Shown in pieces: positions 54,883 through 63,748 of a stretch of DNA of 64,000 nt. The stretch lies in NCBI RefSeq assembly GCF_000196115.1, contig NC_005027.1, forward strand, positions 3,472,001 to 3,536,000, in the 5' to 3' direction. Positions within the stretch are counted from its first letter, which is position 1. Each line of letters begins with the position of its first letter. The translations under genes and the position numbers were made by a program. The stretch is from Rhodopirellula baltica SH 1. Its GTDB lineage: Bacteria > Planctomycetota > Planctomycetia > Pirellulales > Pirellulaceae. The notes beneath the pieces are model-generated. The model had not been told where the DNA came from. It was given only the letters and a program-made list of their open reading frames with translations, and made no database searches.

Positions 54883-55025
54883 ATCGTTCTGCGGACGGTT
54901 GAGATCTGTGCTCCTTCGAATCCAATGCCTACCTAGTACTACAGCGCTAACTGGTGTTGTAGAGGGCCGGGCTTTTCGCTGAGAATAGCAGCTGGAGATT
55001 TTGTTTGCTGCACGGAGAGCTTGGC

Positions 55026-56306
55026 ATGGATGTCGCTGAACTGGAACAACTCGAAGATCGGTTAAATGCTTACTTGGCTCGCTTTGGCGATTGTTTTCGA
55101 CGAAGCGACACGAGGGCTCATTTGACGACCTATGTCCGTGGTCAACTTTCCGACCTGGACGCCAAGAGTGTGGAGCCGATTGCGTTGCAAGCCGGTACAC
55201 CGGTGCGAACCTTGCAGGAATTTATCGCCCAGCATCGGTGGGACGAAGATGGACTTCGCAGGAGGCTGATCCACATCGTCCGTGATGAGCATGTCAACAA
55301 GAACACTGTCGCGATCATTGACGAAACCAGCGACGTCAAGAAGGGCGACAAAACGCCTGGCGTGCAACGACAGTGGTGCGGCAAAGTCGGCAAGCAGGAG
55401 AACTGTATCGTCACGGTTCATCTGGCTGCGGCGAACGAAGACTTTCACTGCATGGTCGATGGTGAACTGTTCCTCCCCGAGAGCTGGAGTAACGACCGCG
55501 AGCGTTGTGCCGCCGCCGGCATTCCCGATGAGATGGTCTATCGCCCCAAGTGGCAGATCGCGTTGGAATTGCTTGATCGCAGTAAGGAGGAGGGGATTGA
55601 ATATCCTTGGCTAACCGCTGACGAAGGCTACGGCGGTAAACCTGGATTCCTGGAAGCTCTTGCCGACCGCGATCAGAAGTTTGTGCTTGAAGTGCCGCGA
55701 ACGTTTTCGGTTTGGGAGAAGCATCCCGAAGTGACCGAGCAGCCCTATCGCAAGGGCGGCCGCGGCCGAGGTCGCAAGACACCCCGCGTCAAGAGCGGGG
55801 AAAGTTCGCCGCGAAGTGTTGAAACAGTGTTCTGGCACGGCGAAGCGATGAAAGCGAAACGCTGGAAACGCTACCGCGTCAAAGACGGCGAGAAAGGTCC
55901 CATCATCTGGGAAGCCAAGCGGGTTCGCGTCACACTCAAAGGCAGCGACGGACTACCGGGGCTGTCTCTGTGGTTGGTGGTCGCGAGAAACGTGCTTGAC
56001 GGCGAACTGAAATTCTTCGTCAGCAACGCGAGCGAGTTCGCTTCGATGGCGATGCTGCTACAGGTTGCGTTTCAGCGATGGCGAGTGGAACGTTGTTTCG
56101 AGGATCAGAAACAAGAGGTCGGCTTAGACTGTTACGAGGGGCGCCGATATTTGGGTCTGAAACGCCACTTGATCATCACGTCGTTGAGCTATCTGTTTCT
56201 TTCGCAAACCTGCCAGCAGGAGCGGGAAAAAAAATCCGGAGTGGACAATTCAGCAAATTCGCGACGCGGTCGACGCAATCGTTGTCAGCTGGTCACTCCC
56301 TCGTGA
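55026..56306 (+). CDS. IS701-like DDE transposase, main frame
   Basis: 426 residues from ATG 55026, which has GGAGAG 6 nt upstream; TTG 55005 is an alternative. The DDE residues are likely in VAIIDETSDVKKGDKTPGVQ (first Asp), YPWLTADEGYGGKPGFLEAL (second Asp) and WRVERCFEDQKQEVGLDCYE (Glu). The conserved C-terminal tail of the family is missing from this frame: after GAAAAAAAA (A8 at 56227-56234) the frame runs into 23 unrelated Arg/Ser-rich codons and stops at 56306. The proper tail lies in the +1 frame (next entry). Either the gene is frameshifted by one A or the tract is slippery. Confidence 0.88.
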   Translation: MDVAELEQLEDRLNAYLARFGDCFRRSDTRAHLTTYVRGQLSDLDAKSVEPIALQAGTPVRTLQEFIAQHRWDEDGLRRRLIHIVRDEHVNKNTVAIIDETSDVKKGDKTPGVQRQWCGKVGKQENCIVTVHLAAANEDFHCMVDGELFLPESWSNDRERCAAAGIPDEMVYRPKWQIALELLDRSKEEGIEYPWLTADEGYGGKPGFLEALADRDQKFVLEVPRTFSVWEKHPEVTEQPYRKGGRGRGRKTPRVKSGESSPRSVETVFWHGEAMKAKRWKRYRVKDGEKGPIIWEAKRVRVTLKGSDGLPGLSLWLVVARNVLDGELKFFVSNASEFASMAMLLQVAFQRWRVERCFEDQKQEVGLDCYEGRRYLGLKRHLIITSLSYLFLSQTCQQEREKKSGVDNSANSRRGRRNRCQLVTPS

Positions 56307-56516: not shown

Positions 56517-57980
56517 CTATTCCGTGGCGTCGGGCGTTTCTTGCGAAAGGTTGTATTGAGTTCGGATTTGAAGATGGATGCCAGCCACGCGGCGATTGAC
56601 GGCGGTCATTCTCTCTCGCACCGTTTCGACATGGCCATCCGGGAACTGAAGATTCAGCTCAACTTCCCACCCCACGTCGTGCCCCATTTTCGAAAGCAGC
56701 TCAACCAAATCTTCAGTGAAGCGTTTGCGTGCGAGCAAGCCATATTGCTCGCTCGCAAACGACATGATCTGGTCGGCTGGGATTCCATCAATCGATCTGA
56801 GTTGCGACCAATCGCCAGCCACACAAACCGTTGGCAGATCGTCCTTCCACCGCACGTCTGTGAACGGGGCGACTCGAGCATACTTCCCAGCATTCACGGG
56901 AGGGTCCAACGCACTGACGACTTCCGCATCGGACGATGCTTTGGAACTGGCATGGGTGACAAAAGAAAAGATAGCTGCGAACGCCAAGGCAGAAACAACC
57001 AGAAGCGTGATCAGGACGACGATTGCCGGACCTTCGAGTCGCTTCGAATTCTCCCCCGTCGATGGTTGCCCTTTGTAGCGTTTGGAAATGAGATACCAAC
57101 GGCCGAAGAACATGATTTCGAACACAATCACGGCCATGACCACGGATTGAAAGAACACCGGACCGGCTTTGTCAAATGCGAACCGGTATCCGCTGTACGC
57201 TGCCATCAAAGTTGGCAGGAGAATCATCCCCGCGATCCACCATGACGGTACGATTCGGTTCCAATTCTCAAACCATTCCGCCGCTCCGGGATTGCCCTCG
57301 ATCTTCGGGTCGTTTTCAGACAACGAAGAAACGAGTTCCACCAGTTCGTCGACCTCGGCGGCGTCGCTCGCGTCTTCGCTTTCCAGAGTTGCCACAATCC
57401 TGCGCAAGTGTTCTTGCCGCGGCTGAAGCTGCTCATCGACTGCTGCTTGATTGAGTCGATAAATCTTGCGGTAGGTATAAAAGAGAAATACGCCGAACGG
57501 TGTCGCAACAAGAAGACATCCCCACCAAGTGCCAGTGAGATTCCAGGCGAGATGGACGAAGAAAGCCATCAACGAAATCGTAAACGGCAGCAGGTACCAC
57601 CAGAAAACGTTTCGCAACAGCCAAATTTGATGTTCGACCTGAGTGAGCGATTCCTTCGCATAAAACAACAGCGGTTGCCCAGGATCGCTTGACGCCTTGG
57701 GATGTCGCTTGCGATCGATCAGCATGAAGCCCGCAATCCAAAGCAACACCGGCACGGTCAACCACCACGACCACGGCAACGAAAAGCCGATCCCCAACAC
57801 CAACCAAACCGGGATCAGCAACAACGACACGCCGACTTCACGCACATCTCGCCAGAAAATCATGGTGCGAAATTGGTCGTCCGATCGCTGGACCTGCTGC
57901 GTCAGCAATTCAATATCAATCGTCACCTTCAACTGCGATGCATCGGCCTTCCAGGCTTGCCGAAACTTATCAAGACTCAT
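56517..57980 (-). CDS. Polytopic membrane protein coupled to an ECF sigma factor (candidate anti-sigma)
   Basis: 487 residues. A ~45-residue cytoplasmic N-terminus (MSLDKFRQAWKADASQLKVT; QVQRSDDQFRTMIFWRDVRE) is followed by helices at about 48-65, 70-88, 125-143, 148-165, 250-268, 277-297 and 322-345, and a C-terminal ~140-residue extracytoplasmic domain. No HxxxCxxC zinc anti-sigma motif is visible. Its start overlaps the ECF sigma gene by 11 bp, the typical arrangement of sigma/anti-sigma pairs, so a regulatory role for the N-terminus is a reasonable inference. No named family was recognised. Confidence 0.82.
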   Translation of the reverse strand: MSLDKFRQAWKADASQLKVTIDIELLTQQVQRSDDQFRTMIFWRDVREVGVSLLLIPVWLVLGIGFSLPWSWWLTVPVLLWIAGFMLIDRKRHPKASSDPGQPLLFYAKESLTQVEHQIWLLRNVFWWYLLPFTISLMAFFVHLAWNLTGTWWGCLLVATPFGVFLFYTYRKIYRLNQAAVDEQLQPRQEHLRRIVATLESEDASDAAEVDELVELVSSLSENDPKIEGNPGAAEWFENWNRIVPSWWIAGMILLPTLMAAYSGYRFAFDKAGPVFFQSVVMAVIVFEIMFFGRWYLISKRYKGQPSTGENSKRLEGPAIVVLITLLVVSALAFAAIFSFVTHASSKASSDAEVVSALDPPVNAGKYARVAPFTDVRWKDDLPTVCVAGDWSQLRSIDGIPADQIMSFASEQYGLLARKRFTEDLVELLSKMGHDVGWEVELNLQFPDGHVETVRERMTAVNRRVAGIHLQIRTQYNLSQETPDATE

Positions 57981-58509
57981 TGTGCTGGCCCTCCGCGACT
58001 TCGACGTTCAGCAATTGGGAGAGTGTTTTCTTTACACGATTCAGCCGCACTCCGACGTTGCTTTCAGATATTCCTAGAACACTGGCCATTTCGCGGTAGG
58101 ACAATTCGTCCAGGTACAGCAGCACCAATGCAACATCGGATTTCGGCAACTGATGAATCGCCTCGTAAAGTTGCTCCAGCGTCTCTCGCTGTTCAGCGTG
58201 CTCGGCAGAATCAATTGTTTCAGATGGAATGGCTTGCACTTCGAGCAGCGGCTGTTGGCACGTCCTTCGCCGTTGATCGTTGCGACGCCAATTCATTGCG
58301 GTATGCAGTGCAACGCGATAAAACCATGTTGCCGGACTGGCTTGCCCTCGAAAACGAGGCAATGAATGCCACGCCTGAAGCAAGATCTCCTGGGCGAGAT
58401 CCTGGCTCTCTTCGCTGCCAAGCGTGTAGGCACGCGCCACCTGAACAACCGAAGCTTTGTGCTTCTCCAGCCAATCAATGAATAGCGACTTGGCATCTTC
58501 TTCCAGCAC
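57970..58509 (-). CDS. ECF-type RNA polymerase sigma factor
   Basis: 179 residues from GTG 58509, chosen because GAGGG lies 7 nt upstream; the frame is open to TTG 58587. Region 2 includes LGSEESQDLAQEILLQAWHS and FRGQASPATWFYRVALHTAM, and region 4 includes LPKSDVALVLLYLDELSYRE and MASVLGISESNVGVRLNRVK, the helix-turn-helix that reads the -35 box. No region 3, as expected for the ECF group. It is cotranscribed and overlaps by 11 bp with the membrane protein gene, its probable regulator. The stimulus is unknown. Confidence 0.92.
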   Translation of the reverse strand: MLEEDAKSLFIDWLEKHKASVVQVARAYTLGSEESQDLAQEILLQAWHSLPRFRGQASPATWFYRVALHTAMNWRRNDQRRRTCQQPLLEVQAIPSETIDSAEHAEQRETLEQLYEAIHQLPKSDVALVLLYLDELSYREMASVLGISESNVGVRLNRVKKTLSQLLNVEVAEGQHNES

Positions 58510-58633
58510 CAGTAGCCCTCGTTCAGTGGTTCCGTTCGACGTCTTTCTATTTGTGTTGGTAACGCTGGTAGCGTATCCCTTACACAAAAAGTTGGTCGTT
58601 CACGAAAAAATCGGTGTGCCGGGCTGAGTGGCC

Positions 58634-58697: not shown

Positions 58698-61600
58698 TCA
58701 TGGGCTCGCTTGGGAGACGAACTCGGCTGGCAATTCGTACTGTCCGTCCGATGCCAAACGTGTCGTGATCAAGATTGCTGACTTGTCCGGTTTCACCACC
58801 CACACCAATGCCTGCTTCGGATCGGCCGGTCCGGTCGCGGTTCGATCGGGGTTGGCCCCAAGCACCAAATCGGTCAGCACCGTTCGCAACGGAATATCAT
58901 TTTTCGCGAAATCACGAATTTGTTGGTTTTGGGTGATGCCCATCTTCTGCAAATCACCACCAATGATTTCGATGGGTGGCAATTGATTGTTCGCGGGCAG
59001 GTCACGGTTGAACTCTTCAGCAATCGTGTCGACGGCAAACTGCAACGATTCTTGATCGAAGCTGACCGACATCTTCCGGTCCAGCAATTCCTCGATCGAC
59101 AATTTGGTTTGAGTGGACGCCATTGCCTCCGAGACAGGTTCGGTCGTCGTGTTTGTGGCGAGCAAGGTTGCCAACGTCAGTTGCGGCAGAGCCAATGGTG
59201 GCAGGTAAGCGTTCCAAACAAGTTTGCGATCCACGCGACCGGTACGCACATTCTCTTGCGCAAACGCCCACATCGACGGCAGCCTCGCGGCGAGCAATCT
59301 CCACGAAGGATCGATGTCACGCGTCACCAGGAAGTCTTCTGCCCAGCGAGGTGCGTTGTCGAGTTGGGCACGAAGTGGCGTCGCCAGCGCGGTGGGATCA
59401 ACGCCCGGGGCAGCTGCCAAGCGAACTTCGACATACGATCCAGTTGGGCTGGTTGATGTTTCGTTGGACGAATTTTCGGACGCGGATGCCACTCGAACCA
59501 ACACGCCGCCGCAATCGGCGAGAAGGTTTTGTCGAATCCATGGAATCAGTTCCGGCGAAGTCGCGTCCATCCAATGCCTCGCATCGCTGACCAGGAAATT
59601 AGGCTGGGTTAGAAACGCGATCGCATCATTGGGACGAGCGGATTGCCAAAGTTCTTCGAGCAACCGCGGCAACACAACCGGCGCGCCTCCCATCTCGGCG
59701 ACCTCACCAATGCGAGCGATGGAGCCAACCGCGAACGCATCGACCAGGTCGTCGGCAGCTCCCGCAGGACGACCTTGCGTCATCGGGAAATACGCCAACG
59801 CATCGCGAGTGTCACCGGCGTAGATGGTCTCACCACCAGGTCCGCGTGCGGAAGAGACGCCCCAGGTATCCAGCAAAGTTTCTAACGACTTTGGTTCGTT
59901 CAAACGAATTCCAGCGGCGACTTCTGGAATGCCTTCTTCTCCAGGAAACCAGGCCAACGCCACATGAGCGATCGTTTCGCTAGGCACTCCCGACCATTGG
60001 TTCAGGGCGTCCAACCAGCTTTGAGTTTCGGGACCGAACATCTCCAGCAACCCGAGTTGTTGAAGTCGTTGCCAATCCATCGTCACCACCGCGGCGGGAC
60101 CTGGCGGCAACAATCCGGTGGCACGACTGACTTGTTCACCGTCTGCCCGCAAGTCTGGCGGAGCCCAAAGCATTTGCTCGTTGTCGACGACTTGAATTCC
60201 CGTCGCGGGCGGATCGGAACGACGAACCGGAGAGCGGACCGGCGTCGTGGGCTGGTTCGTATCACTCGAAACACGAGGAATGAATTGTGGAACCGGCGGC
60301 CGGACTCGCTTAGCAACTTCCCGCGGATTCTTGTCTCGCGTTGCCAGCATGGCGACCAAAACCAATACGGGAACGCACAACGCGTAGATCCCGTACCACG
60401 CTTTGCGGTTGCGTCGCCTTCGTCGACGGCGAACCGGAACAACGGCGGCAACGTTTTGTTTTGATTCCGTTGGTTTCGGTTCAGGTGTCGCGGTCGATGC
60501 TTCGGCTTTCGTCGTCTCAGGCACTTCCGACTCTGCGACAACGAGCGGAGTGGCATCGGCTTCAGGGTCCGCGTCGACGGAAGCGACGCCCGCCGAAGTT
60601 TCAGGCTGTGATGTGCCACCTCGTTCTACCATCGCTTCCTTGGCAACTTTCGCGACGGAAGCCACCTCTGCTTCCGCAATAGCCTTTGCGTCAGTCGGCG
60701 TCTCAACTTTCTTGGGCGAAGTCCCCGAGCCTGGTTCCGATGTGCGAGATGGCTTGGCCAGCGGCGCGTTCCGTGGCGTCGGTTTGGAAGCCTCGACCTT
60801 TGGAGCGGTTTCTTTTGCCGCAGGTTTGGGCTTCGCCGGCGAAGTCGTTCGTTCCGCCTTTTTCTCAGGCGACTTCTTCTCGGTCGACTTCTCTACAACT
60901 GGCGTCTTTTCTACCGGCCGCTTGGTGATCGTCTCTGTCTTCGTAGCCGATCGCTGTTTTGTAGGCGCTGGTTCAACCGGAGTTGCCGTTGCCGCCACGT
61001 TCAAAGCTTGCGCGAATTGCTCGACGCTTGCGAAGCGAGCATTGGGATCAGTCGCCAATGCGGCTGCCAAAACTCGACACAACGGATCGCCGGTTGCACC
61101 CTGCTCAACGGCCGTCGTCAATTCCGAAGGCAATGCGGATCGCGAATCGTTGGCAAAAGCAGGACGTCCGAACCGCAATTCAAATCCCAAACATCCAATT
61201 GCAAAGATGTCGTCGGCAACCGTCAGTTCGTGATTTTGCGAACCAGCCAAACGTTCGGGCGACCAGTAAGATTGGCAATCGGGTGATGAATCGAGCCATG
61301 TTTCGCGTTTGGACTTTCCGTTTTTTCCGGCAACGCTCTGCATCGATGCAAATGGATCTCGCAGCAAAGTCCATTGACCGGAATCGTTGGCCCAAATTCG
61401 ATCGCGATGAATGTCGCCATGGACCATCTTCTTTGCGTGCATGGCTGCGACCGCATCGCAGATCGGATTTAGCACGGCCACGGTTTGCTGGACCGATCGA
61501 GGCTGGTCGAGTGGATCCAAGCATCGTCCCGAAGCCAACGGGGTGAAAACACCCGCGAAATCATGGCGGCTGCCGATGGGCTCGCCCAATGGACCGTTCC

Positions 61601-62063
61601 GAACCGGGACAATCTCGATGGGTTGCAACGATGGGTGTGATAGTTCGGCGTGAGCCCGCAAGTTGGCGGCGGCTTCGGCGGGCAAGCCGGCCGGATTGAT
61701 TTGCCGCAACCAGCCGGAGACCGGCTTTGCACCGGCTTGCGCTGGGTCGCAAACCACGGATTGCCAATCCGAGAAAGGAAAGGGAGCCGATTTATCAGCC
61801 GCAACCAGGGTCAGCGGCGGAATTCGCAGGAGTGGCGTGTTGGGAAAGTCAACTTCCCACGTGGTGTGCTGCAGCACTCGCGAAATAGGGTATTTTTTAA
61901 CTCGGCCGGTTTTGACCAGCCACGATGCGAGCGACACGGGATCCGACGGCGGTTTGCCCCCGTGATCGTTCGCGAAATCGGCGGCCCAAATTGGTGGGTC
62001 GGAGGCGTCGGCCAGTCCGCTTTGGACCATCCGTTTCCAAAAATCGACAAGTTGCAGCGGCAT
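58698..62063 (-). CDS. Large pseudokinase-like membrane protein with C-terminal secretin-N-like tail
   Basis: 1121 residues from ATG 62063. Residues ~75-375 have a protein-kinase layout: HGDIHRDRIWAND in place of the catalytic HxDxKxxN loop, RDPF where DFG should be, YWSPERLAG (APE-like) and DDIFAIGCLGFELRFGRPAF. No Gly-rich loop or VAIK lysine is visible and the loop Asn is missing, so it is probably inactive. A Lys/Pro/Glu-rich linker (~380-560) is followed by a transmembrane helix (WYGIYALCVPVLVLVAMLAT), a large extracytoplasmic region, and a C-terminal part (VSFDQESLQFAVDTIAEEFN; DIPLRTVLTDLV) resembling STN/secretin-N modules. Not part of an obvious operon. Confidence 0.78.
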   Translation of the reverse strand: MPLQLVDFWKRMVQSGLADASDPPIWAADFANDHGGKPPSDPVSLASWLVKTGRVKKYPISRVLQHTTWEVDFPNTPLLRIPPLTLVAADKSAPFPFSDWQSVVCDPAQAGAKPVSGWLRQINPAGLPAEAAANLRAHAELSHPSLQPIEIVPVRNGPLGEPIGSRHDFAGVFTPLASGRCLDPLDQPRSVQQTVAVLNPICDAVAAMHAKKMVHGDIHRDRIWANDSGQWTLLRDPFASMQSVAGKNGKSKRETWLDSSPDCQSYWSPERLAGSQNHELTVADDIFAIGCLGFELRFGRPAFANDSRSALPSELTTAVEQGATGDPLCRVLAAALATDPNARFASVEQFAQALNVAATATPVEPAPTKQRSATKTETITKRPVEKTPVVEKSTEKKSPEKKAERTTSPAKPKPAAKETAPKVEASKPTPRNAPLAKPSRTSEPGSGTSPKKVETPTDAKAIAEAEVASVAKVAKEAMVERGGTSQPETSAGVASVDADPEADATPLVVAESEVPETTKAEASTATPEPKPTESKQNVAAVVPVRRRRRRRNRKAWYGIYALCVPVLVLVAMLATRDKNPREVAKRVRPPVPQFIPRVSSDTNQPTTPVRSPVRRSDPPATGIQVVDNEQMLWAPPDLRADGEQVSRATGLLPPGPAAVVTMDWQRLQQLGLLEMFGPETQSWLDALNQWSGVPSETIAHVALAWFPGEEGIPEVAAGIRLNEPKSLETLLDTWGVSSARGPGGETIYAGDTRDALAYFPMTQGRPAGAADDLVDAFAVGSIARIGEVAEMGGAPVVLPRLLEELWQSARPNDAIAFLTQPNFLVSDARHWMDATSPELIPWIRQNLLADCGGVLVRVASASENSSNETSTSPTGSYVEVRLAAAPGVDPTALATPLRAQLDNAPRWAEDFLVTRDIDPSWRLLAARLPSMWAFAQENVRTGRVDRKLVWNAYLPPLALPQLTLATLLATNTTTEPVSEAMASTQTKLSIEELLDRKMSVSFDQESLQFAVDTIAEEFNRDLPANNQLPPIEIIGGDLQKMGITQNQQIRDFAKNDIPLRTVLTDLVLGANPDRTATGPADPKQALVWVVKPDKSAILITTRLASDGQYELPAEFVSQASP

Positions 62064-62224: not shown

Positions 62225-63748
62225 TTGAATATCGTCTACCTGACGACCGAAGCCGTTCCATTCGCCAAAACCGGTGGTCTCGCCGACGTCTGTGGCACTC
62301 TGCCCAAAGTGGTTGCCGCTCAAGGGCATCGCTGTGCGGTCATCATGCCTGCCTTTTCATCGATCGAACGATCGTTGCAACCGATCGAGACGACCGACAT
62401 CAGCTTCGCGGTTCCAATGTCGGATCAAAAGCTGATCGGTTGCCGCCTATTGAAAAGCCATCTGCCGAAAGATCCCAACGATCCAGAGGACTCGGCCGAG
62501 GTCCCGGTTTATTTCATCGACCAACCGCAATACTTCCGACGCCCCTCGCTCTACGGTGACGCCAACGGAGACTACCACGACAACGCCGAACGATTCATTT
62601 TTTACTGTCGTGCCGCGATCATCGCGATGACTCGATTGGGGTATCCGGTCGATTTGGTGCACTGCAACGATTGGCAATCTGCTTTGGTACCCGCGCTGTT
62701 GCGAGCTGCGTCGGACAACGTGGCAAAGACCCAACCAATTGCGACGATGCTGTCGATTCACAACATGGCCTATCAAGGCAACTTTGGTTTCGATGCGTTT
62801 CCGTGGACTGGTTTGAGTTGGGATCACTTCCGACCGGAATCATTCGAGTACTACAACCAGCTGAACTTCCTCAAAACCGGTGTTGTGACCTCCGATGTTG
62901 TGTCGACGGTCAGCCCCACGTATGCCTTGGAAATCCAAACGCCAGAGTACGGCTGCGGACTGGATTCGATCCTGCAAGGCATCCCGCAACCTGTCGCGGG
63001 AATCATCAACGGAATCGACACAAACATTTGGAATCCCGAAACCGATCCACACCTCAAACGCAATTACAGCGTGGTGGATTGGGCTGACGCAAAGATTGAC
63101 AACAAACTTGCGTTGCAAGCCGAGGTGGGTTTGCCACAAGATCCTGACGTTCCGTTGCTGGGATTGATTGGTCGTTTGGCGGATCAAAAAGGGTGGGACC
63201 TGATCCTTCCCGTTTTAAAACAACACCTCGCCGAAGCACGTCCAACGCAGTGGGTCGTACTAGGCAGCGGCGATCCCAAAATCGAGGAGCAACTACGCGA
63301 GCTGACCGAGCAACATCCCGAACAACTGGCCGCGTACATCGGCTTCAGCGATGCATTGGCTCATCGCATCGAAGCGTCGAGCGACATGTTCATCATGCCC
63401 AGCCACTACGAACCCTGCGGGCTCAATCAACTCTATAGCCTTCGGTACGGTACTCCGTGCGTTGTGACCAAGACCGGCGGTTTAGCGGACACAATCGTGG
63501 ATGCGACTCCGGAGAACGTTGCGGCAAATCTCGCCACAGGGTTCCATTTGAATGACAGCAGCGCCGGTGCGCTTGACCACGCGATCAACCGGGCTCTGCA
63601 GCTTCGATATCACTCTCCCGAAAAATGGAAAAATCTTGTCGAATTCGGTATGTCGCAGGATTGGACGTGGAGGAAAAGTGCAGACCAATACATTCAACTT
63701 TATGCCCGCACAATTTCCCTAAATCGTCGAAGGCGATCGGGAAGCTAG
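62225..63748 (+). CDS. glgA: Glycogen synthase (ADP-glucose type)
   Basis: GlgA adds glucose from ADP-glucose to the growing alpha-1,4-glucan. The 507-residue GT5 enzyme begins MNIVYLTTEAVPFAKTGGLA, with the ADP-glucose-binding Lys15-Thr-Gly-Gly-Leu; because this is the conserved N-terminus, TTG 62225 must be the start. LVHCNDWQSALVPALLR, TMLSIHNMAYQGNFGFDAFP and VSPTYALEIQTPEYGCGLDS follow. The C-terminal Rossmann domain has LLGLIGRLADQKGWDLIL and MPSHYEPCGLNQLYSLRYGT with the catalytic Glu, and TKTGGLADTIVDAT. No other glycogen gene lies within the window. Confidence 0.95.
   Translation: MNIVYLTTEAVPFAKTGGLADVCGTLPKVVAAQGHRCAVIMPAFSSIERSLQPIETTDISFAVPMSDQKLIGCRLLKSHLPKDPNDPEDSAEVPVYFIDQPQYFRRPSLYGDANGDYHDNAERFIFYCRAAIIAMTRLGYPVDLVHCNDWQSALVPALLRAASDNVAKTQPIATMLSIHNMAYQGNFGFDAFPWTGLSWDHFRPESFEYYNQLNFLKTGVVTSDVVSTVSPTYALEIQTPEYGCGLDSILQGIPQPVAGIINGIDTNIWNPETDPHLKRNYSVVDWADAKIDNKLALQAEVGLPQDPDVPLLGLIGRLADQKGWDLILPVLKQHLAEARPTQWVVLGSGDPKIEEQLRELTEQHPEQLAAYIGFSDALAHRIEASSDMFIMPSHYEPCGLNQLYSLRYGTPCVVTKTGGLADTIVDATPENVAANLATGFHLNDSSAGALDHAINRALQLRYHSPEKWKNLVEFGMSQDWTWRKSADQYIQLYARTISLNRRRRSGS

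Follow-up and report, generated by a model that had tools for sequence, protein, structure and literature searches.

A Transmembrane Pseudokinase of Rhodopirellula baltica with a Predicted N0/STN-Type Ectodomain, a Candidate Scaffold Protein of the Envelope

The window analysed in this study is a stretch of 64,000 nucleotides from Rhodopirellula baltica SH 1 (contig NC_005027.1, positions 3,472,001 to 3,536,000). The gene under study occupies positions 58698..62063 on the minus strand, where all the features of its product given below also lie. It encodes a protein of 1121 amino acids in which a kinase-like domain that has lost its catalytic residues is joined through a membrane helix to a predicted secretin-type N0/STN module. 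The gene starts with the ATG at 62063 and stops at 58698-58700; the mechanically called open reading frame begins 7 codons earlier, at a TTG. The N-terminal helical domain (residues 5-72, 61848..62051), delimited by an AlphaFold model and a profile, is followed by the kinase-like domain of the PknB fold (residues 75-362, 60978..61841) and by a linker rich in Pro, Lys and Ala (residues 363-552, 60408..60977; low predicted confidence at 363-400). Then come a hydrophobic helix with an Arg-rich stretch before it, read from the sequence as a membrane helix (residues 554-577, 60333..60404), a TP0453-like module assigned by an AlphaFold model and a structure search (residues 646-967, 59163..60128), and an N0/STN-like module assigned by the same model and a profile comparison (residues 989-1104, 58752..59099). 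Each of the two outer modules had a single match in the genome of the window. The Pfam analysis of the whole protein detected Pkinase only, with no PASTA repeats and no secretin barrel. As no signal peptide was seen and the Arg-rich stretch precedes the helix, the positive-inside rule indicates that the head should lie in the cytoplasm and the rest outside. No N-terminal lipobox was seen; the membrane helix is internal instead.

A first-pass annotation had assigned a kinase layout to the cytoplasmic half, and structure prediction confirmed it. The AlphaFold2 model of residues 1-400, built from an alignment of 67 family rows including the window protein, showed a kinase fold with a predicted local distance difference test score (pLDDT) of 86.1 and a predicted template modelling score (pTM) of 0.83. 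PknB (Foldseek E 5.6e-11; VIA Z 21.8, 235 aligned residues, 3.6 Å, 17% identity) and other kinases were among its best structural matches. In Pfam searches, residues 1-400 matched Pkinase at 192-310 (E 1e-7, 32.0 bits with a cut-off of 31.7), the whole TTG-started protein reached 29.6 bits, just under the cut-off, and 66 of the 67 family rows matched at E ≤ 0.01.

The Gly-rich loop, the catalytic-loop Asn and the DFG motif are lost, as had been noticed from the beginning, and the beta-3 Lys, which had not been listed, is lost too. The beta-3 (VAIK) Lys column holds Q121 in the window protein and Lys in none of the 67 rows. The two Gly columns of the Gly-rich loop hold A93 and F95, and both glycines are present in a single row. 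Meanwhile, the HRD Asp is retained as D217 within the HGD sequence H215-G216-D217 (61413..61421), as it is in 6/67 rows. Gly stands in the Arg column of this motif in 57/67 rows and His before it in 54/67. The catalytic-loop Asn column contains R222 in the window protein and Asn in two rows. The DFG equivalent is R235-D236-P237 (61353..61361), with Arg in the DFG-Asp column in 51/67 rows and Asp in none. The spacing from the Asn position to DFG equals that of protein kinase A, which supports R235 as the equivalent of the DFG-Asp and D236 as the next residue. No row has the full set of Lys, HRD-Asp, Asn and DFG-Asp: 61 rows have none of the four, four rows have one and two rows have two. The two outcomes that the first-pass annotation had named as refuting it, a model lacking the kinase fold or an alignment with a functional Lys/Asp/Asn set, were therefore both not obtained.

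The C-lobe framework is kept, including the APE motif (P in 67/67 rows, E in 66/67), the D-x-Y-x-L-G helix (D in 61/67, G in 66/67) and R343 (67/67). The family shares the kinase fold and this framework with the PknB-type Ser/Thr kinases but has neither their catalytic set nor a PASTA ectodomain. The reference alignment comprised 24 kinases of the same genome chosen by an H-x-D....N and DFG-like pattern (24 of 30 loci passed), so that their D, N and DFG are retained by construction; their Lys, present in 24/24, is independent of this selection. A further 14 deeper rows, five from the family of the window and nine from the rest of the order, were examined as well. These had Lys in 0/14, the HRD Asp in 2/14, Asn in 6/14 and the DFG-Asp in 1/14, so that, for the two alignments combined, Lys is gone in 81/81 rows and the DFG-Asp in 80/81. 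Since the further rows also lack the Lys and mostly lack the other catalytic residues, the aligned sequences indicate that the loss of the active site is old and general.

The head is nevertheless maintained. The ratio of nonsynonymous to synonymous substitution rates (dN/dS) of the kinase part was 0.106-0.152 in four within-genus comparisons, three with the window gene and one between two relatives, with one synonymous rate near saturation at 2.1. This shows that the head is kept under purifying selection and is not decaying. The linker, for which two of the four comparisons were computable, gave 0.42 and 0.58, which corresponds to relaxed constraint. The most reduced pseudokinase head was seen in a relative of 877 amino acids (L168, G023:C1:149000-164000), where, judged by eye, the helical domain and a large part of the N-lobe appear to be absent. 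The profile of the N-terminal helical domain gave a weak match (E 0.005) to the N-terminal end of a Ser/Thr kinase in the same genome that looks active. It also matched the head of a PQQ beta-propeller membrane protein (E 4e-6; L146 765-4154 on the plus strand, window genome 5815264-5818653). From these profile matches, the helical domain looks like a mobile cytoplasmic module that also occurs outside kinases.

The ectodomain was modelled as residues 585-1121 (pLDDT 86.2, pTM 0.66). The first-pass annotation had proposed that the extracytoplasmic half ends in several secretin-N-like modules, which held for residues 989-1104 but not for residues 646-967, where a different fold was predicted. 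The latter resembles TP0453 of Treponema pallidum (Foldseek E 6.1e-8; Z 11.3, 222 aligned residues, 4.9 Å, 10% identity), the solved chains of which span only this module; RseB/MucB also matched this part, with Z of 4.5-4.9. TP0453 is reportedly an outer-membrane-associated lipoprotein and differs in this from the window protein. Partial matches to the TP0453-like profile were also seen in two DUF1559 proteins (L236 1560-4313 on the plus strand and L237 5455-7119 on the minus strand), one of them sitting behind a BlaR1-type M56 peptidase, and the module may be spread beyond this family.

The model of residues 989-1104 matched EscC (Z 7.2, 84 aligned residues, 3.0 Å), PilQ (Z 6.9), phage Mu gp44 (Z 7.2), the phage needle 9g8s (Z 7.5) and a chain of the Legionella Dot outer-membrane complex, which we take to be DotD (Z 5.9). 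Phage tail hubs and VgrG were also among its VIA matches. Such proteins are counted among those of the N0 topology, and a known N0 domain gave DALI Z values of 5.0-7.3 with an overlapping set of EscC, DotD, gp44, GspD and TonB-receptor domains (PMC3093366, Table 3). A Z below 8 would by itself be weak ground for an assignment; the kind of matches obtained, together with the profile comparison with a neighbouring protein described below, adds support. The predicted model thus places residues 989-1104 in the N0/STN-type fold, as one module and not several.

Constraint within the protein is strongest in the N0-like module (dN/dS 0.010-0.042, compared with 0.058-0.077 for the TP0453-like module). 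In its 48-row alignment, G58, I59, T60, N62 and Q63 are invariant. These belong to the most conserved motif of the family, G1042-I-T-Q-N-Q1047 (58923..58940), which takes the form G[YF]T-x-N in the 11 relatives with a zinc-ribbon head that were read. Compared with the N0/STN domains of EscC, PilQ, DotD and Mu gp44, the module shares the predicted fold and is linked to them by profile through the neighbouring protein. It differs from the secretin domains in ending an inner-membrane protein without a barrel, in its family-specific GITQNQ motif and in an insert before the last strands. Searches of Pfam, NCBIfam and PDB profiles with the ectodomain found no relative. In 75 family rows, Pfam assigned neither outer module to a family, giving only scattered weak matches, and no Secretin match.

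A candidate partner of the protein is encoded next to its gene in many relatives. The partner combines a zinc ribbon and a membrane helix with two STN modules, and behind each of the latter lies a module resembling the N1 of secretins. The two N1-like pieces match each other in the profile comparison (96.3%); their label relies on the pattern of modules and on a single weak Secretin_N match (E 0.064). Among the five partners scanned with Pfam, STN was above the cut-off of 28.4 bits in one (L161, 31.3 bits), below it in two (27.9 and 17.2 bits) and absent in two. When compared by hhalign, the N0 module of the window family matched the second STN module of the partner with 94.6% (E 6.7e-8) and the first with 57.3% (E 1e-4); 11 control pairs gave 0.1-1.1%.

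Clustering of the neighbours of 100 loci placed the partner family right behind the gene and on the same strand in 22; the cluster also includes two loci with an unrelated DUF1559-like protein. By a hand count, 30 of the 47 order relatives outside the genus have the partner immediately downstream and on the same strand, with matches less than 0.5 kb apart (G013-G017, G020, G026, G028, G030-G033, G037, G038, G040-G042, G044-G046, G048, G049, G051, G053-G059). In G053, a contig end truncates the locus; other contig-edge cases were excluded from this count. As the gene pair is present in many relatives, the two proteins may be the parts of a so far undescribed scaffold in the planctomycete cell envelope.

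Orthologues with the same architecture were found in other planctomycetes. In the search with the whole protein, 60/60 relatives matched, some of them only through kinases. The N0 profile matched 170 of the 246 genomes of the order, taken to be Pirellulales, mostly with one copy, and a few of the genomes listed had two or three. Across the phylum, it matched 5/294 genomes, one of them weakly. The TP0453-like profile matched 20/294, namely four of the family of the window and 16 of another family of the class (f21), which probably belongs to Planctomycetales. In all of the 11 f21 loci that were read, the protein starts with a zinc ribbon in place of the kinase and ends with the same two outer parts. 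The N0 part of f21 is distant by profile, only L225 reaching E 1e-3 with the profile of the order; its equivalence is proposed because of its position, its motif, its match to the partner-type profile and a weak Pfam STN match in one f21 relative (L147, E 0.21). The next gene in 6/11 f21 loci encodes a shorter zinc-ribbon protein matching the partner profile. Four of these six were scanned, and all had DUF1559, two of them also STN under the cut-off. DUF1559 occurs on pilin-like proteins in planctomycetes.

Of the 111 loci, 97 contributed their ectodomains to a tree; 11 truncated or frame-broken loci and three others were omitted, and the window is represented by its near relative L063. The rows had a pseudokinase head in 80 cases, a zinc ribbon in 11, no head in five and the helical domain only in one (L157 of family f3). 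The four head labels require three changes on this tree, the minimum possible. The zinc-ribbon rows form one side of a branch (support 100) and the headless rows another (support 97); the headless rows are nested inside the kinase-headed order with supports of 94 and 90, under the starred level. The tree was of a quick type with a midpoint root. The partner bears a zinc ribbon in both groups, which hints that the ribbon may be older than the pseudokinase head. These results indicate that the architecture is a well-kept family and not a chance fusion. Because the relatives carry a pseudokinase, a zinc ribbon or no head, the ectodomain is, by sequence comparison, the conserved core of the protein and the cytoplasmic head its variable part.

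The explanation to which we give about an even chance is that the protein is a bitopic subunit in the inner membrane, acting as a non-catalytic scaffold within an N0-type envelope assembly of two proteins. The dead kinase-fold head would face the cytoplasm and serve as a protein-binding surface, connected by the long flexible linker and one membrane helix to the TP0453-like and terminal N0/STN modules outside. The terminal module would touch the N0/STN modules of the second membrane protein with its zinc ribbon, helix, two STN and two N1-like modules. Together the two proteins would build a hetero-oligomer, probably shaped like a ring or patch, at the periplasmic face, from which information on position or state could pass through the heads to the cytoplasm. 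This explanation is supported by the predicted folds, the loss of the active site, purifying selection, the exchange of heads and the conserved gene pair. We infer the topology and the contact of the pair, and also that the proteins oligomerise and that the head acts as a scaffold; what the analysis shows for the pair itself is gene order and a shared domain type. Envelope transport machines contain N0 domains, so that a first guess by analogy is that the assembly may have a transport or pilus-related role.

A number of observations weigh against the scaffold explanation. The N0 module was missing at E ≤ 0.001 from 76 of the 246 genomes of the order, no Pfam STN match was obtained in the 75 family ectodomains at E ≤ 1, and Z values of about 7 are of a size that VIA describes as common, the highest of them belonging to a phage protein with 3% identity. 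The head appears dispensable in family f7, in which all five loci read are headless and four begin just before the membrane helix. One of these f7 loci (L153, 5401-6807 on the plus strand) starts, by eye, with a lipoprotein-like signal in place of the membrane helix. The adjacency of the pair was not shown in 17 of the 47 order relatives; the partner was absent or far in some (e.g., G018, G022-G025, G035) and undetected or at a contig edge in the remainder. The pair is unlinked in 13/13 genomes of the genus of the window. The partner homologue of the window genome (G000:C1:1086617-1088098) has diverged, matching profile positions 13-490 and one weak piece, with no Pfam STN match at E ≤ 0.1. 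A downstream partner-type gene was also missing in 5/11 f21 loci.

A wider proposal, which we hold only tentatively and consider doubtful, is that Planctomycetia carry an undescribed envelope machine composed of two inner-membrane N0/STN proteins without a secretin, the cytoplasmic adaptor of which can be swapped. In Pirellulales the adaptor would be a dead kinase, except for one family of this order that has none, and another family of the class would use a zinc ribbon; the kinase fold would have been recruited, or lost, as a whole, serving as a non-catalytic plug-in head on a conserved periplasmic ring.

The other explanations considered overlap with each other and with the scaffold explanation, and their probabilities do not sum to one. 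According to the best surviving of them, which we regard as rather unlikely, the protein is a receptor. Its ectodomain would sense the state of the envelope or a lipid, and the dead head would be a docking platform phosphorylated by, or regulating, an active kinase, with a regulatory and not a structural output. Partners for such a head are abundant, with 60 Pkinase matches in the genome, and the helical domain weakly resembles that of the active-looking kinase mentioned above. MviN, which works with PknB and FhaA, offers a precedent (PMC12599244, section 8). Against this, the heads are lost or swapped for zinc ribbons while the ectodomain persists. The conserved neighbour bears a zinc ribbon and STN, and no kinase, phosphatase or FHA domain was detected by Pfam in the five partners. 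Of the proposal that this is a signalling pseudokinase, the kinase fold with a lost active site and the single membrane helix remain; the head proved exchangeable, and signalling is only one possible role for it.

A direct role at the outer membrane is distinctly less probable. In such a case, the TP0453-like module would bind or enter lipids and the N0 module would dock onto an outer-membrane partner, so that the protein bridges the membranes or moves lipid and the head is only an anchor. TP0453 is the clearest fold match of this module, the titles of two papers on TP0453 refer to membrane integration by two amphipathic helices and to membrane permeability, and the lipoprotein-like signal of the headless L153 would fit as well. 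However, the fold match has only 10% identity at 4.9 Å, and the PDB profile search with the module gave no sequence match to TP0453. The window protein is no lipoprotein, its membrane helix being internal, and a shared fold is no proof of function.

The first-pass annotation had also tied the protein to an envelope secretin. If it were part of a standard secretin machine of the type II or pilus kind, it would contact the N0 ring of the secretin from the inner membrane, like GspC or GspB; we regard this as about as improbable as the lipid role. It is favoured by the N0-type fold, by DUF1559 on the four scanned f21 partners and by the presence of secretins in 60/60 relatives, with a mean of six Secretin matches per genome of ~7 Mb. 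Using seven secretins as tblastn queries, we found a secretin gene in two of the 111 neighbourhoods (1.56 Mb in total), L140 and L164, in the latter (G048) ~7 kb from the gene. About 1.4 would be expected by chance, the comparison being rough, as tblastn is less sensitive than the profile used for the expectation. Association by gene order was thus rejected as chance. Furthermore, GspB, an inner-membrane protein able to hold a secretin through the N0 domains of the latter, and GspC reach the secretin N0 via an HR domain and not via an N0 of their own (PMC9239104). As there is no barrel and secretins occur near the gene about as often as by chance, the tie is unsupported: the protein is secretin-like in one domain and not secretin-associated by gene order.

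Altered activity of the head, which would bind nucleotide as do SelO or the DYD kinases, with a beta-3 Arg and the conserved Asp in RDP replacing lost residues, is very improbable: an Asp does follow the DFG-Asp column in 54/67 rows, Arg is the commonest residue of the beta-3 Lys column (27/67) and a beta-3 Arg has been proposed from models of DYD pseudokinases to pair with the motif Asp (PMC12599244), but the Lys and the DFG-Asp are absent from all 67 rows, Asn from 65 and the two Gly-loop glycines from 66, and the window protein has its Arg one residue before the Lys column.

The scaffold explanation has precedents among known pseudokinases. The membrane part of mycobacterial MviN is multi-helix. 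MviN (MurJ) is a membrane-tied pseudokinase, as the window protein is, and regulates cell-wall synthesis by recruiting a partner; it differs in having a carbohydrate-binding domain of its own, a catalytic loop without the HG motif and a mostly deleted DFG, whereas the window family has HG-x (PMC12599244, Table 1 for the motifs). EssB/YukC, a non-catalytic scaffold of type VIIb secretion in Firmicutes, likewise spans the membrane and has on its cytoplasmic side a kinase fold whose catalytic motifs are all degraded (PMC12599244, section 4), an architecture shared with the window protein. EssB/YukC belongs to a different phylum, and that section mentions no TP0453-like or N0 module for it. The architecture had been called new at first. 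As a membrane pseudokinase with an N0 ectodomain, it is a new variant, but a pseudokinase on a secretion machine has its precedent in the account of EssB/YukC. A membrane helix C-terminal to the pseudokinase is also found in the GLW, ActPs2 and many ActPs3 pseudokinases. These are described mainly in proteobacteria or actinobacteria (PMC12599244), and the window family has HG-x at HRD in most rows and not GLW.

Bacterial pseudokinases are little studied according to the abstract of this review, the main text of which contains no mention of planctomycetes. In the open-licence literature, no title dealt with planctomycete transmembrane pseudokinases and none with the STN domain in planctomycetes. 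The family provides a natural experiment, in that its orthologues combine the same ectodomain with a dead kinase, with a zinc ribbon or with no head at all. The protein has one copy in the window genome and is under selection, and the gene pair offers a testable set of two N0-domain proteins in the planctomycete envelope. The envelope transport and pilus machinery of planctomycetes is poorly understood.

Other neighbours of the gene were examined as possible partners by tblastn in flanks of up to 7 kb, some of which were cut by contig ends. The divergent neighbour glgA, encoding a glycogen/starch synthase (62225..63748, plus strand), keeps its place in 33/80 related loci at ~51-99% identity and was not found in the rest. 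In the clustering of 100 loci, a gene for what we take to be a Glu-dehydrogenase-like protein is divergent in 14. Both were attributed to an inherited neighbourhood. On the other side, two minus-strand genes at 56517-57980 and 57970-58587 form a pair in which an extracytoplasmic function (ECF) sigma factor gene overlaps that of a membrane-type protein to which Pfam assigns no significant family. This pair was rejected as conserved partners, being beside the gene in 1/80 related loci, that of the nearest relative only. It is adjoined by a transposase open reading frame at 55005-56306 on the plus strand (Pfam DDE_5, E 3e-82).

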